Under the pieces are notes generated by a model, which saw only the letters and a list, made by a program, of their open reading frames with translations, made no database searches and was not told where the DNA came from. Shown here piece by piece: positions 14,618 to 45,611 of a DNA stretch of 47,241 nt. Within the stretch, counting starts at the first letter, position 1. Each line of letters begins with the position of its first letter. The position numbers and the translations under genes are program-made. The DNA comes from a virus, in IMG/VR virus record IMGVR_UViG_3300025892_000037, positions 1 to 47,241 of that record. One strand, given 5' to 3'.

Positions 14618-14637
14618 TATTTATACTCATATTTATA
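14618..14637 (-). promoter_or_regulatory. Tandem late-type promoters TATAAATA
   Basis: Two exact minus-strand copies, 14618-14625 and 14630-14637, within the 51-bp gap upstream of fibre A (start 14589). Tandem copies occur nowhere else in the window, which suggests strong late expression of this fibre. Confidence 0.7.
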
Positions 14638-15453: not shown

Positions 15454-16045
15454 TTAATTCTCCTTTAACTGCAAAAATACATATTATTCGTCTTTCATCA
15501 TCTTGTTTAAAACGAACTGAATGAAATTTTAATCCATCAAAACACATCATCTTGCCCCTTTCAGGCTCTACTTCATGTTCTACTTTTAAACCAGAATCAC
15601 CATCTTTATTTAAATACACAGTAGACTCGCCTTCTTGCAACTTCTTATCATATATGATTGTTGCGCCACTGCTGTCTGTTAAATATAGTATCAGTACTGT
15701 GTGTGGCTCATCATAGTCAACATGTGGGTCACAAAATTCATCTTCAAAAGATAGTGAATCGTTTAGACATGCCCTTAATACTGTGTACTTACCTTTAAAT
15801 ATCTCATGCTTATTTATAAACCTTTCAAATATAGGTTTAAAGAACCAGTACCAATCTGACATAATGGGGTCAGAAATAATATTCTCATTTTTGTCTTGTC
15901 TAGTTGCTAATACATGTCCGTAGAATGGGTAGTCCATAGAACTAGAATATGGCATTCTATACCAGGGAAAAAACTGGCCGTTTATTATTTGATTGTCAAT
16001 TTTGTCTTGTTCATCGCCACTTAAAAAGTTACTTTCTACTATCAT
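15437..16045 (-). CDS. 2-oxoglutarate/Fe(II)-dependent oxygenase (prolyl-4-hydroxylase-like)
   Basis: Predicted hydroxylase using O2 and 2-oxoglutarate. The 202-residue cupin-type domain shows the iron facial triad H108-x-D110 (PHVDYDEPH) and H175 (GLKFHSVRF), with R185/R186 placed to bind 2-oxoglutarate. Strands VLILYLTD and GATIIYD and the GKMMCFDGLKFHSV segment match the family. Its ATG lies in the halogenase stop (ATGA, 4-bp overlap), so the two are translationally coupled. Substrate unknown: a protein side chain, a glycan or a small molecule. Marine myoviruses commonly carry such oxygenases near fibre genes. Confidence 0.85.
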   Translation of the reverse strand: MIVESNFLSGDEQDKIDNQIINGQFFPWYRMPYSSSMDYPFYGHVLATRQDKNENIISDPIMSDWYWFFKPIFERFINKHEIFKGKYTVLRACLNDSLSFEDEFCDPHVDYDEPHTVLILYLTDSSGATIIYDKKLQEGESTVYLNKDGDSGLKVEHEVEPERGKMMCFDGLKFHSVRFKQDDERRIICIFAVKGELNGMVL

Positions 16046-17526
16046 ATAGCGTTTTCTTTAATATATTTTAACCACCCTTCTTGTCGTTTTAATATCCATT
16101 CTCTAAACTTTTTACCATCTTCAAGCATACCTGGATTACCAAACAGTTCTTCAAACTTAACATCATAATTAGATACAGTATTTAATCCTTGTCCAAATGC
16201 AATTGCGTTATAGTGTGCATTGAACGGAATAACTCTACTCTCTTTGTGTGTAGATGTATAAAACTCATCGGCCGCATTATTGTTCTTTAGTTTATGAAGG
16301 TGTGCATCTTTCCAATATGGTGTATCATCTCTTGTAGCATACTGATAGTGCATTACTACAAAGTCTGCAAAATCATCAAATCTATTTCCCATGGCGTAAT
16401 TAAATGCAGCCTTCTCACCACCATTAAACACACCTCGTTGTAAGCACTTGACAAGCGTATTAAGTGATTCGTGTGTAGTTAATAACCCACCAGACTCTAA
16501 TGGTTCTATAAACCCTGCAGCCAACCCTATTGCAACAACATTTTGTTTTGCCATTCTTTCTTGTCTGCCATGTTTCCAAGTTAATAATCTAAACTGTAAC
16601 TCATCATCTCTATTCAGATGTTCTTTAAATTCTTCTAGTGCCTGGTCATTATCAACATATCTACTAGAAAAAACATATCCTGTTCCTGTTCTATTTGCAG
16701 TTGGTGTATTCCAAACCCAACCGTTGTTTAATGTAGTGCAGTTTGTATGATACTGATTTGGATAACTTTCAGGAAGTTGTGTTACCCAAGCACTATCGTT
16801 TACTAACCCACCACCATAATCTCTAAATTTACTACCAATAGCATTCATTAATAGTGCTTTAAATCCTGTACAATCTATCCACAAATCAGATGTGAGTGCA
16901 TTATCAGCTCTAAAAGGCACACCAGGAGAAGCAACATCACAATGAATTCTTTCGATACCTTGATTATTAGTATCAATCGCATATACAGTTTGACTAATAA
17001 TTTTTACGCCTCTAGGAAGGCAGTATTCATTTTTTAACCATTGTGCAAACTTGACCGCATCAAAATGATAAGCAGAGTTTTGTTTTAAATCCCAACCTTC
17101 CATTCTTTCAACTAAAAGATTGTTCTCTGCCATAAGTGCGGCCGGAAAGAAAACTTCTGCCCATTCGTTGTCTGGCACATCTTCTGCTAATCTACTGAAA
17201 TTATAATAATCAAAATCAGTATCATCTGCATATTGAGGCATACCAAATGGATAGTGAAAGTGTCCGCCTTTGCCATCCCAGTTTTCAAATCTTATTGATA
17301 TCTTGTGAGTTGCATTACAGGCGTCCATCCAATCTTCGTCTTTTATTCCAAGACTATACATCCATGGTCGAATGTATTGTAGTGTGCTTTCACCAACACC
17401 AATTGTAGGAAAATCAGGAGATTCTACTACAATTATTTCTTTATCGGGGAATGCGTTTATTAGCGAAGCGGCAGACATCCAACCTGCACTACCACCACCT
17501 ATTATTGTGATTTTGTCTACTTTCAT
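16042..17526 (-). CDS. Flavin-dependent halogenase (tryptophan halogenase family)
   Basis: FAD-dependent enzyme that makes hypohalous acid from FADH2, O2 and halide and adds halogen to an aromatic substrate. The 494 residues contain the FAD-binding GGGSAGWMSA (10-19), the lysine that carries the halogenating species in NATHKISIRF (K75), the family fingerprint WVWNTP (W270-x-W272-x2-P275) that suppresses monooxygenase activity, and GFIEPLESGG (338-347) with the expected catalytic glutamate near 341. The length fits the family. A marine viral relative, VirX1 of a cyanophage, is known to halogenate in vitro. No flavin reductase is visible nearby, so reduced FAD would come from the host. Downstream oxygenase overlaps by 4 bp. 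Confidence 0.92.
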   Translation of the reverse strand: MKVDKITIIGGGSAGWMSAASLINAFPDKEIIVVESPDFPTIGVGESTLQYIRPWMYSLGIKDEDWMDACNATHKISIRFENWDGKGGHFHYPFGMPQYADDTDFDYYNFSRLAEDVPDNEWAEVFFPAALMAENNLLVERMEGWDLKQNSAYHFDAVKFAQWLKNEYCLPRGVKIISQTVYAIDTNNQGIERIHCDVASPGVPFRADNALTSDLWIDCTGFKALLMNAIGSKFRDYGGGLVNDSAWVTQLPESYPNQYHTNCTTLNNGWVWNTPTANRTGTGYVFSSRYVDNDQALEEFKEHLNRDDELQFRLLTWKHGRQERMAKQNVVAIGLAAGFIEPLESGGLLTTHESLNTLVKCLQRGVFNGGEKAAFNYAMGNRFDDFADFVVMHYQYATRDDTPYWKDAHLHKLKNNNAADEFYTSTHKESRVIPFNAHYNAIAFGQGLNTVSNYDVKFEELFGNPGMLEDGKKFREWILKRQEGWLKYIKENAI

Positions 17527-27795: not shown

Positions 27796-28033
27796 TTGCC
27801 AACCCTATAAGTAAGTCTTTAATTTCTCGCATTTCTGTTTTTAATTCATTTACATCACGAATCACACTTCTTATTTCGTCATTCTGTTCTTTCTGTTTTC
27901 TTTTTCTCGCCATATAACGAGCATAAGCATCGGAGTCAGTATTGACAATTGCTTGAGATTTTAAATCTCTAACTAAGTTTGCGTGACCTTTAACCTTTGC
28001 AGTATCTTCCATAAGATTAAACTGCCAAGGCAA
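27785..28033 (-). CDS. Small coiled-coil protein
   Basis: An 82-residue charged, helical protein (MPWQFNLMEDTAKVKGHANL, then RKRKQKEQNDEIRSVIRDVN and ELKTEMREIKDLLIGLANG). The last 40 residues have heptad spacing for a coiled coil. It overlaps the end of the large DUF4815-type gene by 17 bp and the next gene by 11 bp, so it belongs to the baseplate/fibre transcript. Function unknown; assembly chaperone or trimerisation partner are options. Confidence 0.65.
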   Translation of the reverse strand: MPWQFNLMEDTAKVKGHANLVRDLKSQAIVNTDSDAYARYMARKRKQKEQNDEIRSVIRDVNELKTEMREIKDLLIGLANGR

Positions 28034-31000
28034 TTCCTCTCATATCTCGTAAAATAGGTGGCTGTGAACTGTTTGTTCCAGACATCACTACCTTCAACTG
28101 AAACGCAGTAAATTCAGGCAAATCACTTGCACTAAATTTCTGTTCTTTAAATGTCAAACTATCTTTTGAAGGGTCAACTGCCGTGTCTGAAGTTCCATCA
28201 GAGTTAAACGCTGCCCAGGCAACATCACCGAGTTTTCTTGCATCCTCGGCACTTGTAATACGATAATATAATCTAAGTGTTGCCGTAGATTGAACATTTG
28301 CAGAAATTCTAATATCTAACGCAGTAGCGTCATTAGTCAATATAACAGGTCTTGTCATATACTTAGCAGAAGCACTACCGCCAGTATTTGTTGTTTCTTC
28401 AACAAAATCAGGAGTAGTTCCGTCTATTGGGTTATTTAATCTGTTCTGTATTAAGAACGCACTCAATCTTTGTGTGTCAATCACAGGCGAAATATTATTA
28501 CTCTCTACAGGAGTTGACATAGAAATTGCAAGATTAAATGATTTACTACTAGACATCTCATTCGTTTCATTGATTGCACTAGCAATTAAATGCGGCGCAC
28601 TCATATAGTAATCTTCATTAAATGTTACTGATATTGCCTTTGATGTTGCAGCCAATGAGTATTCTGTTTCAGAACCTTCAAGTGTTCTACCAGTTGTGTT
28701 TCTCATTGTTGCAGTCAATGATGTAGTTGGCGGTTGTATTGCACCAACGACAGGTTGAATTACATCATAGAGAATATTTCTTGTTGCAGTTACATTAGCT
28801 AATCCAGCACACTCACCAGACGCCGAAGCAGTATCAGAGTTTTGTGCAGTAATAGTGTAAGAATCTAACTTAATATTTCCAATCGTAGTATATGTGCCAT
28901 TAAGGTTTGTGTGTGCAATGCCGTTGTGTGAACCAGAAGGAACGCCTGCGATTGTAACATTAGCAGATGTACTGTGCATACCATGATTAGGATGATGAAC
29001 AGTAACCGTAGTAGAACCACTAGTTGTTGTAAGTGGGTTTTGTTTCAATGTCTTAGTCGGAATTATATCATTTACAAGATGAACTGTACCAGTTGTTGCC
29101 TCTGTAAACTTAGCACGATTAAGAATAAACTTCACATCTTCATTCTGTTCAGCAGTCCAAGTACTTCCATTCTGCGACTTAAACATTCCACCAAATGTCG
29201 GTTGTTTAGAAATCAATCTATTGTCATCTAAAGTCTTTTGTCCCATTCTAGCCGTGTATATAGTGTAGTTCGGAGAATTTGACTTTGCAACAAAACAGTA
29301 CTCTGTATTTTCTTTTAAGAATACAGGACTTGGGAATGTGAATGTTGTTGACTCAGAAGCATCTGAAGAAACACTTACATCGCCTGCATCTACAAACACT
29401 TGACCAAACGGAACAATTGTTTGAGATGGATATCCATTAACCATTGTTCTGATTTGAACTTGTACAGGAGTTACACTTGCCTTAGATGAGAAGTATAATT
29501 CACAACTTGTAATAAACAAACCATTTGTAGAATCTACAAAGAAGGATTGAGCAACAGGGTCTGGATTATGATGTCTGTGTGGTGGATTACCAGCCCAAAC
29601 TTGAGTGTTAGTAGTGTCTATATTTGTTCTTGTTATAGTCTGGTCCTCTTGAACATCTGTTCTTGAAATTTGAGGTTCTCTCGTAGACACAATAGTTTCT
29701 TGAACTTGTTGTATCATTCCTTTTGCAGTATAATCAGCCTCAGCAGATGTAAACACATCGCCAACCATATCATTTGTTGAACTAGTTGTTAATCTAAATG
29801 TTCTCTTACCTGTTCTCCAGATAGGACCTTGATGACTCGCTCTGTTCCATTTTCCAGTTGGCGGTTCAGGAATTGAAAAAACTCCTGATACTTGACCAGC
29901 GGCATTAGTTGTTAGAGCCGCACCTGCACTACTTCCTGTTGGTGTAACATAAGCAGAAACATCAATACCATCAAAGAATGGATAAACTCTTGTTAGAGGT
30001 TTCATATCTTTTGCATCAAATGAAACATCTTTTCCTCGAATGAATGGAGCAAACGCAACACTCACCACTCTATCACCAAAACTTGTTCTTACAGCATTTG
30101 GTATTAAACCAGTACGAATTCCTGCCCTTCTAAGTCCAACTCGTTGTGCAGTTTCAATAGTTGTTGTTTGAGTCTGCCAACCAAAACCAGGAGTTTGAGT
30201 ATTTGTTCTATTTGTTTCTTGTACTGAGCCAGACCATTGTTCGTTCCAGTTACCCCAAACAGTACCAAGATTTAAATCTAATACACCAGCAGAAGCAAGA
30301 TTTGTCAATGTATCGAATGTGCCTGGCATATCGACTTGTAAATCGGGTAATGTTTCAGTTGCCATCCACTCATCCATTTCAGGTAAAAGCGTTATTGTGC
30401 CAACATAGTCGATTACATCAAATGGTTGTAAATTAATTGTAGTACTGGCATATGGTTGTTCTGCATATGCTTCACTCGTATAAGGTAGTGTAATCAAATC
30501 ACCAGTCTTTTGATAACCGTTTGTTGTTCTAATTGCATCAGTCATTGCAGTACTGTTTTCTAATGAACTATCTGACTCTATTAGATTAATATTGTCTTGA
30601 TGGAACGCAGGGCGTAATTCGCCGTTTGCCATGTCCATAGAAACTGAATAGTCTGCATCTGTTACATCTGCAATTCCATGTCCAGTAAAGTTATCTACGA
30701 TAATACCATTCTTAAATCTATCAAAGCCGTCAGCATCTTGTATTTGCATATTTTGTGCTTCTGCTTCTAGTAGAGATAGTTGTGTATAGTATTCTACATT
30801 TTCTAGTCGTTTCTCTATACGACCGATATCTCTCATTGTATATCGTCTATTATCTTGTGGTGTTATTTTAATATCTTCTGTATTAAATGTGTATGCAGGT
30901 ATAAACATCTTATACAATAGCATAGCATCTGCAATACCTTCAGGTTCGATAGGCTCAACTGCCGAAGCGCCAGAGATTACTTTAAAGTCGCCATTAGATG

Positions 31001-34000
31001 CCATGAACACTTTATCTCTACGACTTAAATAGAACTCCAAGTCAGCAGTAATGTCTGTGTTGAATTTTGCAAATTCGACTGTAGAAGCACCTGTGCCACT
31101 AAATTGTCTGTCTTGTCCATCACCAGAATCAATAGTTGTAGCATTATCAACTCTTGGTCTAAGGTCTAGTACATCTCTTAATTCAAACTTCTCACCAGTA
31201 ACATCAGAAGTATAAGAAGGTATATCACCATAGTCTATACCAGAATAACTATCTACACAGAAGAAGTTGCCAGCGCCGTGGGCGTAATAATCGTATGTGA
31301 TAAGAAGTCTACCTGTTGGGGCAGATTCGCCTGCCTTTCTTACTAGACGACCAACATCATAGAAGTTATCTCTTTGTCCAGTATCTAAATCAAATCTGTG
31401 TGTAATATCTAGGTCTGTAGAAGCGGCTGCAGTACTAAAGTCAGCAGACATATAAACAGACTGAACATTGTAAACATCAGCATATCCTAGATTGATTTCA
31501 GTTTTACTTGCAAGAGCTGATGTATCAACAGTCTTAGTTATATCTGTTGTTGCAGTCTTTGTTTTTGCACCAACAACAGAAGCAGAAATAGTTGCAAGAA
31601 TCTTAACTTTACTTCCATTAAATGTGCTGCCTAAATCGATTGCTAAAGTTTTGCCTGTTGGTGAACCGCCAAGTGTATAGTCGCCAGAACTCGAAAGCGT
31701 TATTATATCTCCAACTTCACCAGCAGTAGCACTACCGCCTTTAGTCATTACAGAAACAGTAACATCTGCCTCTGAATGTGCAGTAAATATTTCGTTAGTA
31801 CCAGCAGTAAGTGTCGCAGTACCAGAACTTGAAAGGGTTGAAACGAACTGTCTGCGAATCTTAAATGATGTATCACTAATACTAGAATTATCTTCTGTCA
31901 ATAATGTCTTAGTTACTTGATATGGTAATTTAAATAATAAACTATCATTTGTTGGTGATTGAATTTTTGTTCTTCTTCTTGTGAACTGTACTGTTGTTGC
32001 AGTTGTACTACCTAAACCACTAGACATCTCTGCCTTTGTATCTGAAGCAATACTATCTACAATTCTTGTAACTGTGTTGTTAGCATCATCTGTGAATGTG
32101 ATTGAATCGCCAATTTGTAATTCAGTTGTGAACCTAGTTCCAGAACCAAATACTGTGTCTGCGGCCTGCGATTCTTGTGATATTACATCACCACTATTAT
32201 CTTCTAGTAGAATCTTACCACCAGCGTTTGCCGAACCACCAGTAGTTCCGTTTAATAGTATATCTCCAGCAGTCGAAAGAGCCGCAGTTGTTGAAATTGT
32301 TCCCGTTAGTTTTTTGTGAGCACCAAATGTTGATGTTAAATCTACATCAGCAGTGTATGTCGGTGAACCTGCCATCGAAACACCTTTTGTCTGTGCAAAT
32401 ACTTTTTGTTCAAATCCTTTACAACCATAGGCATTATACTGAACGACAGCAGTGTTACTAGAAGAACCGCCCGTTGCAGTTTCGCCTTGTGTAAATGTTC
32501 CTTTTACATTCGACAAAACAACGACTGTATGTGATGCTGTTCCGCCAGAGGTATATGCTGAGAAACCAGTTCCGTCAACTGGGTCTGTTGCTGATACTGA
32601 AGAAGTCGAAGCATCATATAACTCAAAATTAGTCGAAGATGGATTCTTTACAGTATAGAAGTTGCCATTTAAATCTGTCATACCACCAACACTTGCAAAC
32701 TTGACTTGTTGGCCTTCAATAAAGTTGTGGCCGCCAGAGCATGTTACAACAGGTGGGTTTGCTTGTGAAACTCCTGTTACTGTTGCTTCACCCAAAGATG
32801 TGATACTCTCAACAATACCTGTTGCACCTGAAGAGCCGCCAGTTAATGTTTCACCTGTTGTGAGAGCACCTGAAGCAGGGCCGTAAACATTCAAATGGGC
32901 GAACATTACAGTATCAAATAGATAGTGTTTATATGTGTTAGATGTTAGAGATGAAGTTGACATGAAAACACCAGAAGCAGTTCCAGAGTTGTATTCTATG
33001 CCTCTACTCTTTGCACGACCAATGTCATAAACTGTGCCGTCATTGTTGACTTGTTCTGTTCCTCTTGTGCCATGAACTGCACTTACTAATCGAACTTTCT
33101 TATATGCCTCTGTTTCTCCAGAAACGAATCCGACATCAGGTGTGCCATAGACATTAGTAACATTAACAAACGGAAGTTGTGCAACACGAGTAACAATACC
33201 ACTCGCAGTATCAAAATCTCTCGCCTTATCTATGTCAACATAAGTTGTTCCGTGTTTTGCAATTTCATAACCTTTAACATATGCCTTGCCTTGTGAAAGA
33301 CCTAATGCCAACTTAGCCTCACTTGCAGTATTGCCGTCAACAGATGTGGCCCCAGCCGCATAGATACCACGATTTGTTCCTGATATTAAATGTTCTCTTG
33401 GGTCTAAATCAAAATTACGAACAACATAATCACCACTCTCGTCAAATGTTCTTCTCGCAAGCGTATCTTCTAAAACAGAATATTGTGTTGAAGTAACCTT
33501 ATTAGCTACTGTACCATTTCTTACTCTCATTAATTCAACAAAACTTGCGTCAGCAGTTGAAGTCAATGAAAGTTTAGCAAGAGTTAAATCAATTTTGAAT
33601 CTGTGAGCGCCAGCCGCATTTGCGTTTGATGAGCCTGTTGCGTTATCTAGTAATGTTGTGTCGTCTGTTGAAGTAACAAAAGTTTCTGATATTGTTAGAC
33701 CAACACGATAACTTGGTGTGTTTGTGTACTTGTCTAATATGAGTGTTTGCTCAGATACAGAAACGAAGAAGCCATTAATGTAATAAGTACCAGCCTCTAT
33801 CTTAACAGCAGCGCCTTGAGCCGTTGTAGAAACAACTGCCGTACCAGCAGTACTAGTTAATGTTTCACCATCTGTAAATACAGCACTATCATTATCTGTT
33901 CCTGAATTTCTATATTTTACAAATAAAGTATCAGGGTCAGTACCATCTGTTGCCGCAATATTAACTACATCAGCAGAAACGCCTGAAGTACCACCAGTTA

Positions 34001-34280
34001 CTTGAGTGCCGTTGAAACTCGCAAGAGTTCCAGTAAATGAAGTTAATTTAACGGCGTTATAGTGAAAGTCTGGTTCAATTTGACCAGGAACAACCATTGC
34101 ACCGTGCTCAAAGATGTGGTCACCAAATTTCTCAATTTGATTTTGCGTGATAGATTGTTGTGTTGTTAGTTCCCTTGCTTGAACAGCATACGCTGGTCGA
34201 TACATGACTCTGTGAAACTTTTTGGCTTCATCATAGTCGTCATAATAAGGACTAACATTAAAATCAGTTTTAGATGCCAT
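28017..34280 (-). CDS. Very large baseplate/fibre-connector structural protein (DUF4815-like)
   Basis: A 2087-residue virion protein, the longest gene here. The N-terminus (TDFNVSPYYDDYDEAKKFHR, YRPAYAVQARELTTQQSITQ, EKFGDHIFEHGAMVVPG) is the DUF4815-type start found in marine T4-like phages. Insertion-like modules with ETLTGGSSGATGIVESI and ETATGGSSSNTAVVQY repeat in the first third. Later parts include DLRPRVDN and a QSFFVDSTNGLFITSCELYF/SPVFLKENTEYCFVAKS segment typical of carbohydrate-facing beta-sandwiches. It lies where T4 has genes 9-10, so a wedge-to-fibre connector is likely but inferred. Confidence 0.72.
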   Translation of the reverse strand: MASKTDFNVSPYYDDYDEAKKFHRVMYRPAYAVQARELTTQQSITQNQIEKFGDHIFEHGAMVVPGQIEPDFHYNAVKLTSFTGTLASFNGTQVTGGTSGVSADVVNIAATDGTDPDTLFVKYRNSGTDNDSAVFTDGETLTSTAGTAVVSTTAQGAAVKIEAGTYYINGFFVSVSEQTLILDKYTNTPSYRVGLTISETFVTSTDDTTLLDNATGSSNANAAGAHRFKIDLTLAKLSLTSTADASFVELMRVRNGTVANKVTSTQYSVLEDTLARRTFDESGDYVVRNFDLDPREHLISGTNRGIYAAGATSVDGNTASEAKLALGLSQGKAYVKGYEIAKHGTTYVDIDKARDFDTASGIVTRVAQLPFVNVTNVYGTPDVGFVSGETEAYKKVRLVSAVHGTRGTEQVNNDGTVYDIGRAKSRGIEYNSGTASGVFMSTSSLTSNTYKHYLFDTVMFAHLNVYGPASGALTTGETLTGGSSGATGIVESITSLGEATVTGVSQANPPVVTCSGGHNFIEGQQVKFASVGGMTDLNGNFYTVKNPSSTNFELYDASTSSVSATDPVDGTGFSAYTSGGTASHTVVVLSNVKGTFTQGETATGGSSSNTAVVQYNAYGCKGFEQKVFAQTKGVSMAGSPTYTADVDLTSTFGAHKKLTGTISTTAALSTAGDILLNGTTGGSANAGGKILLEDNSGDVISQESQAADTVFGSGTRFTTELQIGDSITFTDDANNTVTRIVDSIASDTKAEMSSGLGSTTATTVQFTRRRTKIQSPTNDSLLFKLPYQVTKTLLTEDNSSISDTSFKIRRQFVSTLSSSGTATLTAGTNEIFTAHSEADVTVSVMTKGGSATAGEVGDIITLSSSGDYTLGGSPTGKTLAIDLGSTFNGSKVKILATISASVVGAKTKTATTDITKTVDTSALASKTEINLGYADVYNVQSVYMSADFSTAAASTDLDITHRFDLDTGQRDNFYDVGRLVRKAGESAPTGRLLITYDYYAHGAGNFFCVDSYSGIDYGDIPSYTSDVTGEKFELRDVLDLRPRVDNATTIDSGDGQDRQFSGTGASTVEFAKFNTDITADLEFYLSRRDKVFMASNGDFKVISGASAVEPIEPEGIADAMLLYKMFIPAYTFNTEDIKITPQDNRRYTMRDIGRIEKRLENVEYYTQLSLLEAEAQNMQIQDADGFDRFKNGIIVDNFTGHGIADVTDADYSVSMDMANGELRPAFHQDNINLIESDSSLENSTAMTDAIRTTNGYQKTGDLITLPYTSEAYAEQPYASTTINLQPFDVIDYVGTITLLPEMDEWMATETLPDLQVDMPGTFDTLTNLASAGVLDLNLGTVWGNWNEQWSGSVQETNRTNTQTPGFGWQTQTTTIETAQRVGLRRAGIRTGLIPNAVRTSFGDRVVSVAFAPFIRGKDVSFDAKDMKPLTRVYPFFDGIDVSAYVTPTGSSAGAALTTNAAGQVSGVFSIPEPPTGKWNRASHQGPIWRTGKRTFRLTTSSTNDMVGDVFTSAEADYTAKGMIQQVQETIVSTREPQISRTDVQEDQTITRTNIDTTNTQVWAGNPPHRHHNPDPVAQSFFVDSTNGLFITSCELYFSSKASVTPVQVQIRTMVNGYPSQTIVPFGQVFVDAGDVSVSSDASESTTFTFPSPVFLKENTEYCFVAKSNSPNYTIYTARMGQKTLDDNRLISKQPTFGGMFKSQNGSTWTAEQNEDVKFILNRAKFTEATTGTVHLVNDIIPTKTLKQNPLTTTSGSTTVTVHHPNHGMHSTSANVTIAGVPSGSHNGIAHTNLNGTYTTIGNIKLDSYTITAQNSDTASASGECAGLANVTATRNILYDVIQPVVGAIQPPTTSLTATMRNTTGRTLEGSETEYSLAATSKAISVTFNEDYYMSAPHLIASAINETNEMSSSKSFNLAISMSTPVESNNISPVIDTQRLSAFLIQNRLNNPIDGTTPDFVEETTNTGGSASAKYMTRPVILTNDATALDIRISANVQSTATLRLYYRITSAEDARKLGDVAWAAFNSDGTSDTAVDPSKDSLTFKEQKFSASDLPEFTAFQLKVVMSGTNSSQPPILRDMRGIALAV

Positions 34281-44452: not shown

Positions 44453-44671
44453 ATGACTTTTGAAGAATTAAGCCGTCAGTTTGAAAAACTGTGGGTAGAC
44501 TTATGTGAGGATGGTCAACAAGACCCACTTGCATGTGCAGGTATTATGATGGCTCAAGCCATGAGAATATACAAGTCAATGCTCACAGAAAACGAATTTA
44601 ATATTATGGTAGAAACCATACTAAAATCTCGACCAGAGATTACTACAATAGAGAAACCTACAATTAACTAA
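44453..44671 (+). CDS. Unknown small acidic protein
   Basis: A 72-residue acidic helical protein (MTFEELSRQFEKLWVDLCED, DPLACAGIMMAQAMRIYKSM, then NEFNIMVETILKSRPEITTI). ATG at 44453 is preceded by AAGGAG about 10 bp upstream. A three-codon ATGAAATGA lies between SD and start. The longer reading from 44405 overlaps the DUF3310 gene and lacks an SD, so I rejected it. No family recognised. Confidence 0.62.
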   Translation: MTFEELSRQFEKLWVDLCEDGQQDPLACAGIMMAQAMRIYKSMLTENEFNIMVETILKSRPEITTIEKPTIN

Positions 44672-44904
44672 TGTACAAACAAATAAGTGAAAAGCAATTT
44701 AATAAATTGTTAGACTCCTATGAACAAGGAGGCACCTATCAAAAAAAGAAAACTATGATTGATAAAAATAAAATGAGATTCACCTACGACCTTTGGTTGC
44801 AGAAATACAAAGGCAAAACTGTACATGAAATTACTGTAGAAGAACACACAAAGTTCTCTAAAGAATACAAATCGTGGAAGACAGGAAATATTGAGAAATT
44901 ATAA
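44671..44904 (+). CDS. Unknown small basic protein, last gene of the plus-strand operon
   Basis: A 77-residue Lys-rich protein (MYKQISEKQFNKLLDSYEQG, KMRFTYDLWLQKYKGKTVHE, then ITVEEHTKFSKEYKSWKTGN). Starts in the previous stop (TAATG overlap) and ends at 44904, where the TAA forms part of a plus-strand TATAAATA. No family recognised. It closes the plus-strand operon before the structured region and the convergent minus-strand genes. Confidence 0.62.
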   Translation: MYKQISEKQFNKLLDSYEQGGTYQKKKTMIDKNKMRFTYDLWLQKYKGKTVHEITVEEHTKFSKEYKSWKTGNIEKL

Positions 44905-44907
44905 ATA
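44900..44907 (+). promoter_or_regulatory. Plus-strand late-type promoter TATAAATA
   Basis: Exact TATAAATA on the plus strand, overlapping the stop of the last plus-strand gene. No coding gene follows on this strand before the structured region at 44920-45058. It is the only plus-strand copy I noticed in a scan by eye. Confidence 0.45.
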
Positions 44908-44913
44908 TTGCTT

Positions 44914-45060
44914 ACAAATCTTGGGACCGGTAAATCATATGAACAGATACCCAAGTCGTCCTCGGTAAGACGCAAAATTAGGTGTATGTTTAACGATACT
45001 CAGCACCTAAAAGTTGGTCATCAATGACGAAGCTTCCTACTACTTTGATGACCGACTTCT
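44914..45060 (+). ncRNA. Candidate structured noncoding RNA (or bidirectional terminator)
   Basis: Adjacent stem-loops on the plus strand: CTTGGG 44920-44925 with CCCAAG 44950-44955; CGTC 44957-44960 with GACG 44969-44972; TTAGGTG 44978-44984 with CACCTAA 45004-45010; and a 14-bp stem 45011-45024 with 45045-45058 (loop 20). The last stem has one G-U pair on the plus strand, which would be an A-C mismatch on the minus strand, favouring a plus-strand RNA. A TATAAATA sits upstream. The last arm overlaps the end of the convergent 45040-45333 gene. On the minus strand the hairpin is followed only by TTTT, so a weak terminator for that gene is the main alternative. Confidence 0.45.
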
Positions 45061-45333
45061 GCCCCCATCTTTAGACTTTGCTTCTTCATCTTTCTGTTGT
45101 TGAATCACCATATCAAGTTTAGCATTTAAACGAATCAAATCGTTATCTAGCATTCTAATCCTATCAATAAGTGCAATGAGAGTCATATGGCTTTCGTGTA
45201 CAACTGGGTCTACTTCGGTAGTAACCCATTGCCATATGTAATAGATAAAGTATCCCAGTCCTATTGCTGCGATAATTGGGAATCCGTATTGACTGATTAA
45301 TGCACCAATGTCTAATTGTTCAGCTGCTTCCAT
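45040..45333 (-). CDS. Small membrane protein, holin-like candidate (copy 2)
   Basis: A 97-residue protein with one membrane helix near the N-terminus (FPIIAAIGLGYFIYYIWQWV, residues 17-36), then a cytoplasmic coiled coil (LIALIDRIRMLDNDLIRLNA, KLDMVIQQQKDEE) and a basic tail (GGRSRSSK). The arrangement resembles the upstream 45333-45611 product and small holins of the UviB/BhlA type. No endolysin is seen in the window. The start overlaps the upstream gene stop by one base. Confidence 0.6.
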   Translation of the reverse strand: MEAAEQLDIGALISQYGFPIIAAIGLGYFIYYIWQWVTTEVDPVVHESHMTLIALIDRIRMLDNDLIRLNAKLDMVIQQQKDEEAKSKDGGRSRSSK

Positions 45334-45611
45334 TAGTCCTTCCTTGCATCTTTCTGACCATCTGCTCTTGCGATACGGTCCATATCAGGTTGTATGCCAA
45401 ATGCTTGACACATCTTTACATCAATACGAACAATCTCGTTGTTCATAGTTTTTACTCTGTTGTCGAGGGCGATTGCAAACATGCGTTGTTGCTTAATCGA
45501 ATCTAACACACCTGTTAAAATAAAGTTAAGTGTTAGAAAGACGAAGTAACCACCAACTAAGGCTGCAACTATAGGGAATCCTACATCTGTGATAAGTGAT
45601 AACCATTCCAT
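45333..45611 (-). CDS. Small membrane protein, holin-like candidate (copy 1)
   Basis: A 92-residue protein with an N-terminal membrane segment (VGFPIVAALVGGYFVFLTLN, about 10-29) followed by a helical region (MFAIALDNRVKTMNNEIVRI) and a charged tail. It shares the layout GFPI-x-AA-x-GGYF, membrane helix then coiled coil, with the next gene, so the pair is probably a tandem duplication. A holin/antiholin-like pair or membrane scaffold are possibilities. A TATAAATA lies 29 bp upstream. Confidence 0.6.
   Translation of the reverse strand: MEWLSLITDVGFPIVAALVGGYFVFLTLNFILTGVLDSIKQQRMFAIALDNRVKTMNNEIVRIDVKMCQAFGIQPDMDRIARADGQKDARKD

Follow-up and report, generated by a model that had tools for sequence, protein, structure and literature searches.

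A discrete plus-strand non-coding RNA with a palindromic apical loop in related marine T4-like phages

Natural RNA homo-oligomers have rarely been reported, and GOLLD and ROOL, the phage cases solved recently, are large and have no known function. It has been reported that these phage-linked RNAs form homo-oligomeric cages and that palindromes in OLE and GOLLD switch between alleles, conserved palindromy being one argument for homo-oligomer contacts in both (PMC12286853). A self-complementary hexamer, GUGCAC, also occupies an apical loop in the HIV-1 DIS, and the phi29 pRNA is a small phage RNA that multimerises via loops (PMC7357161). Among marine T4-like phages, a glutamine riboswitch and a tmRNA have been described in Melnitz (PMC9004378).

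Here we describe a structured RNA in a viral DNA of 47,241 nt (IMG/VR record IMGVR_UViG_3300025892_000037, analysed over its full length and referred to as the window). The baseplate wedge and tail fibre families encoded in the window mark it as T4-like myovirus DNA. A tryptophan halogenase gene (16042-17526, minus strand; PF04820, phrog_2928) lies among the tail-fibre genes, and the structural region holds a single ORF of 2087 aa (28017-34280, minus strand). Comparison of homologues shows a discrete plus-strand non-coding RNA of ~150 nt, with four helices (P1 to P4) and a predicted promoter of its own, that occupies a single conserved syntenic position across a marine T4-like phage clade. The features of the locus are the following.

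44671 to 44904, plus strand: upstream small ORF (fam2), a syntenic neighbour whose stop codon overlaps the promoter
44900 to 44907, plus strand: predicted T4-type late promoter TATAAATA, the sole plus-strand copy among 13 in the window
44918 to 45066, plus strand: conserved region of the RNA in model R1, scoring 180.6 bits
44920 to 44955, plus strand: P1 hairpin, CUWGGG/CCCWAG, with arms at 44920-44925 and 44950-44955
44926 to 44966, plus strand: candidate P1-P2 loop-loop contact, ACCGG (44926-44930) with UCGGU (44962-44966)
44957 to 44972, plus strand: P2 hairpin, MGUC-CUCGGUAW-GACK
44979 to 45009, plus strand: P3 hairpin, UAGGUG/CACCUA
45011 to 45058, plus strand: P4, the long hairpin, with 13 pairs in the consensus and 14 in the window's copy
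45029 to 45036, plus strand: palindrome of 8 nt in the apical loop of P4, GAAGCUUC here and GGUGCACC in other homologues
45059 to 45066, plus strand: conserved single-stranded tail, the end of ACUUCUGCCMCC, kept despite a different downstream gene
45040 to 45333, minus strand: convergent gene for a small membrane protein of unknown function (phrog_18771)

A gap of 135 bp separates the plus-strand stop codon (44904) from the place where the convergent minus-strand gene ends (45040), and the RNA overshoots it: the 3' arm of P4 and the conserved tail run to 45066, within the 3' end of the convergent gene. From the position of the promoter, the true 5' end would lie at ~44912-44914. Folding of the plus strand over 44900-45060 gave an MFE of -37.5 kcal/mol (z = -2.4), and the minus strand folded nearly as well (z = -2.15); by itself, folding energy makes a weak case for an RNA.

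A search with the convergent protein (phrog_18771) yielded 80 marine viral contigs, three with an obviously similar gap, and further homologues were found via pattern scans with the shared core. The resulting 15 contigs, all from IMG/VR except for one Pelagibacter MAG contig (L158), carry 13 distinct RNA sequences. In their alignment 99% of structure cells were paired, falling to 26-44% when partners were slid by 1-3 columns, and compensatory changes on both sides were found at 10 pairs, with a covariation score that none of 500 shuffles reached. In an R-scape-like null, in which substitutions were replaced along the tree, the observed summed covariation was 73.2 compared to 1.4 +/- 8.0 (0 of 400 simulations). 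Covariation was present in all four stems. One P1 pair (A-U to U-A) was individually significant (E = 4e-4), single-pair statistics being thin for homologues this few and close (mean column identity 86%). P2 showed a compensatory exchange of C-G and A-U around its almost invariant 8-nt loop; in P3, group B sequences carried UAGUUG/UUGACUA-type stems in place of UAGGUG/CACCUA; and in P4 10 of the 13 consensus pairs varied, five of them on both sides. The 24-nt loop of P1 was almost invariant across the 13 homologues. A P1-P2 loop-loop contact is possible; both of its segments are invariant and hence carry no covariation signal. These covariation and shuffle tests, not the folding energy, are decisive for a structured RNA.

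The alignment held 38 G-U cells and no A-C cells, which assigns the RNA to the plus strand. Indels of 1, 2, 4 and 7 nt disrupt every reading frame across the family, excluding a shared frame and arguing that the RNA is non-coding. A 9-codon ORF (MNRYPSRPR, 44939-44968, plus strand) was rejected as the cause of core conservation: its start is lost in L015 and its stop in L001, L003, L083, L086 and L088. Taken together, these comparisons bear out much of what an earlier note had read from the window's letters: four adjacent stem-loops in the 135-bp gap (44905-45039), now backed by 13 homologues; a final stem of 14 bp, as P4 has in the window; and a plus-strand assignment that had leaned on one G-U pair. 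The note had proposed testing homologous gaps for covariation, and the RNA withstood that test.

None of the known RNA families accounts for this RNA, as the note had also supposed. The Rfam 15 covariance models gave no match in the window at the gathering threshold, and over 44850-45100 at E <= 10 only chance matches were seen (E 1.6-3.3). The RNA does not fit the sequence-structure model of GOLLD, ROOL or OLE, for which it is also far too short, and no tRNAs are found in the window, unlike in that comparison group. It shares a link to phages with GOLLD and ROOL, and with the group as a whole the lack of an assigned function, symmetric kissing-loop contacts between copies (oligomers in their case, predicted here from sequence) and a palindromic loop that switches between palindromes (GAAGCUUC and GGUGCACC), a likeness in how the RNA may work and not in membership. 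A phi29-type pRNA is not a match either: that RNA pairs through two complementary non-palindromic loops and serves a packaging motor, whereas the P4 loop is self-complementary, its multimerisation is predicted, and the neighbours examined are small unknown ORFs with no packaging gene. In contrast to the Melnitz RNAs, the RNA described here is not tied to one constant downstream gene, and it matches neither glnA nor tmRNA families. Mimicry of 16S rRNA was considered and rejected. The group B segment AGAUACCCUAGUAGUCC fits the 16S 790 region at 16 of 17 positions, the window's allele fits at the shuffled level (134/300), and changes in the RNA follow its own stems. Group B cores (the equivalent of 44945-44961 in the L087 homologue) are a possible off-target for 16S primers, a match that is not family-wide.

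The P4 loop carried an 8-nt palindrome in all 13 sequences (GAAGCUUC in four and GGUGCACC in nine), with no intermediate between the two among them. Each allele was found in more than one lineage, with at least four switches on an RNA tree built without the loop and at least three on a flanking-protein tree. The palindrome column pairs 118-123 and 119-122 (A2) covaried under the tree-based null (E = 3e-4); a block swap by recombination may have moved the palindrome, in which case these columns would covary regardless of cause. By a rough estimate, the probability that both alleles are palindromic by chance is ~0.006 (13 positions x 4^-4 x 1/9), which is not negligible. An 8-nt palindrome cannot pair within one strand, and therefore its conservation points to intermolecular pairing; the self-duplex energies of the two palindromes are -10.1 and -14.5 kcal/mol. 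The hexamer GUGCAC is that of the HIV-1 DIS (PMC7357161), which belongs to an unrelated virus and RNA and serves a genome dimer that has no counterpart here; the P4 loop, at ~20 nt, is also larger. We regard these observations as moderate evidence for self-association of the RNA.

The late promoter consensus of marine T4-like phages is NATAAATA/TATAAATA (PMC2984593). TATAAATA occurs 13 times in the window (4.4 expected), and 10 of its 12 minus-strand copies sit 22-42 bp ahead of gene starts, with one more at 64 bp. The minus-strand sites include 7478, 10496, 14618, 22122, 25249, 35774, 41371 and 45640, and those at 14618 and 14630 are paired ahead of one tail-fibre gene. The plus-strand copy (44900-44907) stands directly upstream of the RNA, in agreement with the note, and predicts a T4-type late transcription unit. 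TATAAATA was kept 17-23 bp upstream of the RNA in all A-type copies, and a perfect TTGACA-N17-TATAAT replaced the late promoter in three B-type sequences (L087/L089, L153 and L082). L015 was the one exception among the homologues examined; its best upstream match, AATAAATA, has one mismatch. The same RNA thus appears to be driven by two promoter types, late-type and host sigma-70-type, which probably give it different timing. In the window's phage the RNA would be made late in infection.

We considered four other explanations for these data. The RNA could be a trans-acting antisense sRNA, its P4 loop (CCUACUACUUU beside the palindrome) or C-rich tail pairing with phage or host mRNAs and its palindrome being incidental or matching a target with the same two alleles. 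Conserved unpaired segments such as the P4 loop and the tail (ACUUCUGCCMCC) are typical of sRNA seeds. However, no segment of the RNA paired better than shuffled segments with the starts of 42 window genes, a comparison that covered 47 kb of phage and no host, and complements of the tail (GGNGGCAGAAG) turned up nowhere but at the RNA's own site and in unrelated loci. We consider this explanation unlikely, though credible.

The surroundings of the RNA bear on two further explanations. Upstream of the RNA there is always the same cluster of small ORFs, and the RNA adjoins the phrog_18771 gene in most contigs. A co-directional gene separates the RNA from the phrog_18771 gene, or from its expected place, in L081/L003 and L088 (a member of the 2OG-Fe oxygenase superfamily in L081, and grouped as 2OG-Fe oxygenase-like in L088); in L083 and L151 a carbamoyltransferase gene takes this position, and in L087, L153 and L015 a ferredoxin gene is inserted upstream of the RNA. 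P4 and most of the tail (ACUUCUGCC) are retained in all contigs with inserted genes. Because cargo genes on either side leave it whole, the RNA appears independent of its neighbours. The cargo (2OG-Fe oxygenase, carbamoyltransferase and 4Fe-4S ferredoxin) lies, relative to the RNA, at positions 172-635 in L081, 175-697 in L088 and 160-1618 in L083/L151, and at L087 3001-3267, as if the junction were an insertion hot spot. A cis-acting riboswitch or leader does not fit this arrangement: its downstream gene would be constant and co-directional, and here that gene is convergent in most contigs and comes from three families. In the window, the genes at 45040-45333 and 45333-45611 (minus strand) are adjacent phrog_18771 paralogues encoding small membrane proteins, and phrog_18771 relatives in HTVC008M and Melnitz adjoin csgF/csgG genes, just upstream.

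A 3'-end structure of two convergent units (a terminator or an RNase-resistant end), with no discrete product, would suit a site between convergent genes and the strong final hairpin. Yet the homologues share no U tract after P4 on either strand, the promoter lies directly before P1, the loops and P1/P2 core are more conserved than the stems, and the gene that follows the RNA in L081/L003 and L088 runs co-directionally instead of converging on it. We therefore consider this explanation very unlikely. P4 is followed by CUGCC and not by the U tract of an intrinsic terminator with its GC-rich stem, so that a discrete 3' end of the RNA is putative.

A role as a cis-antisense regulator of the convergent gene (45040-45333), which the note had put forward, would build on the antisense overlap in the window between the RNA and the final ~27 nt of that gene, and on the gene family being, in most contigs, the next neighbour on the minus strand. 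Another gene, however, intervenes in L081/L003, L088, L083 and L151, where P4 and the tail are intact, and the invariant P1-P2 core lies outside the overlap. Since the RNA is kept despite intervening genes, antisense control of this gene cannot be its general role, and we consider this explanation highly improbable. The antisense overlap that the note described therefore stands, and regulation through it as a general mechanism does not. The note's alternative of an independent phage RNA is favoured by the predicted promoter and by an RNA kept whole beside differing neighbours, and the terminator-only reading that the note held against it fails on the missing U tract and on the conservation of P1-P3 and the loops. 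Its overall view of a structured, independent RNA is thus upheld; it had missed the palindromic two-allele loop. Alternatively, the palindromes could be recognised by a dimeric protein in a DNA-level element (an operator, an origin or a recombination site). This would suit two 8-bp palindrome alleles exchanged between lineages and cargo genes inserted just outside, but it is just as improbable, since DNA palindromes leave the wobble tolerance of one strand (38 G-U and no A-C cells) unexplained.

To define the range of the RNA, we used model R1, which scores family members at 145-181 bits. It gave just short chance matches in 50 marine T4-like records that encode relatives of the neighbouring protein, more distant relatives of the upstream cluster gave nothing credible, and in 297 Pelagibacter-family genomes the sole match was the known MAG contig, whose synteny is that of a phage. 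A blastn search of INPHARED phages also gave nothing credible. R1 also aligned weakly over its full length to HTVC008M (14.8 bits) and to Melnitz (12.5 bits); these matches were rejected, as they lie antisense in structural or hypothetical genes and are without the core. The RNA is thus confined, in these searches, to a narrow clade, and its absence from more distant relatives indicates that it is not essential to such phages. Protein neighbours and the MAG bin alone suggest relatives of SAR11 or OM43 as hosts.

The best explanation, which we regard as fairly probable, is an RNA of ~150 nt that is made from its own promoter and acts in trans, forming a homodimer through P4. In the dimer, the 8-nt palindromes at the P4 tips of the two copies would pair as a symmetric kissing loop. 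More tentatively, the almost invariant P1/P2 core may be a docking surface for one conserved partner, perhaps a protein or ribonucleoprotein of phage or host, and the dimer might thereby show two such docking sites. A bolder version of this dimer model, distinctly unlikely in our view, is a minimal RNA-only (or RNA-protein) assembly, in which ~150-nt RNAs would recognise their own allele (GAAGCUUC or GGUGCACC) through P4 and palindromes in the P1 loop (ACCGGU, UCAUAUGA) would permit chains or cages; co-infecting phages of the same allele would then share one assembly, and those of different alleles would not.

As judged from its homologues, this phage RNA is real, structured and not described before, and the evidence for its fold, strand and predicted promoter is good. 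Marine T4-like phages with known Pelagibacter and OM43 phages among their relatives thereby gain one more structured RNA. If the proposed self-pairing is true, an RNA of 150 nt with an independent promoter and two natural self-pairing alleles would be a far simpler system in which to study phage RNA self-assembly.
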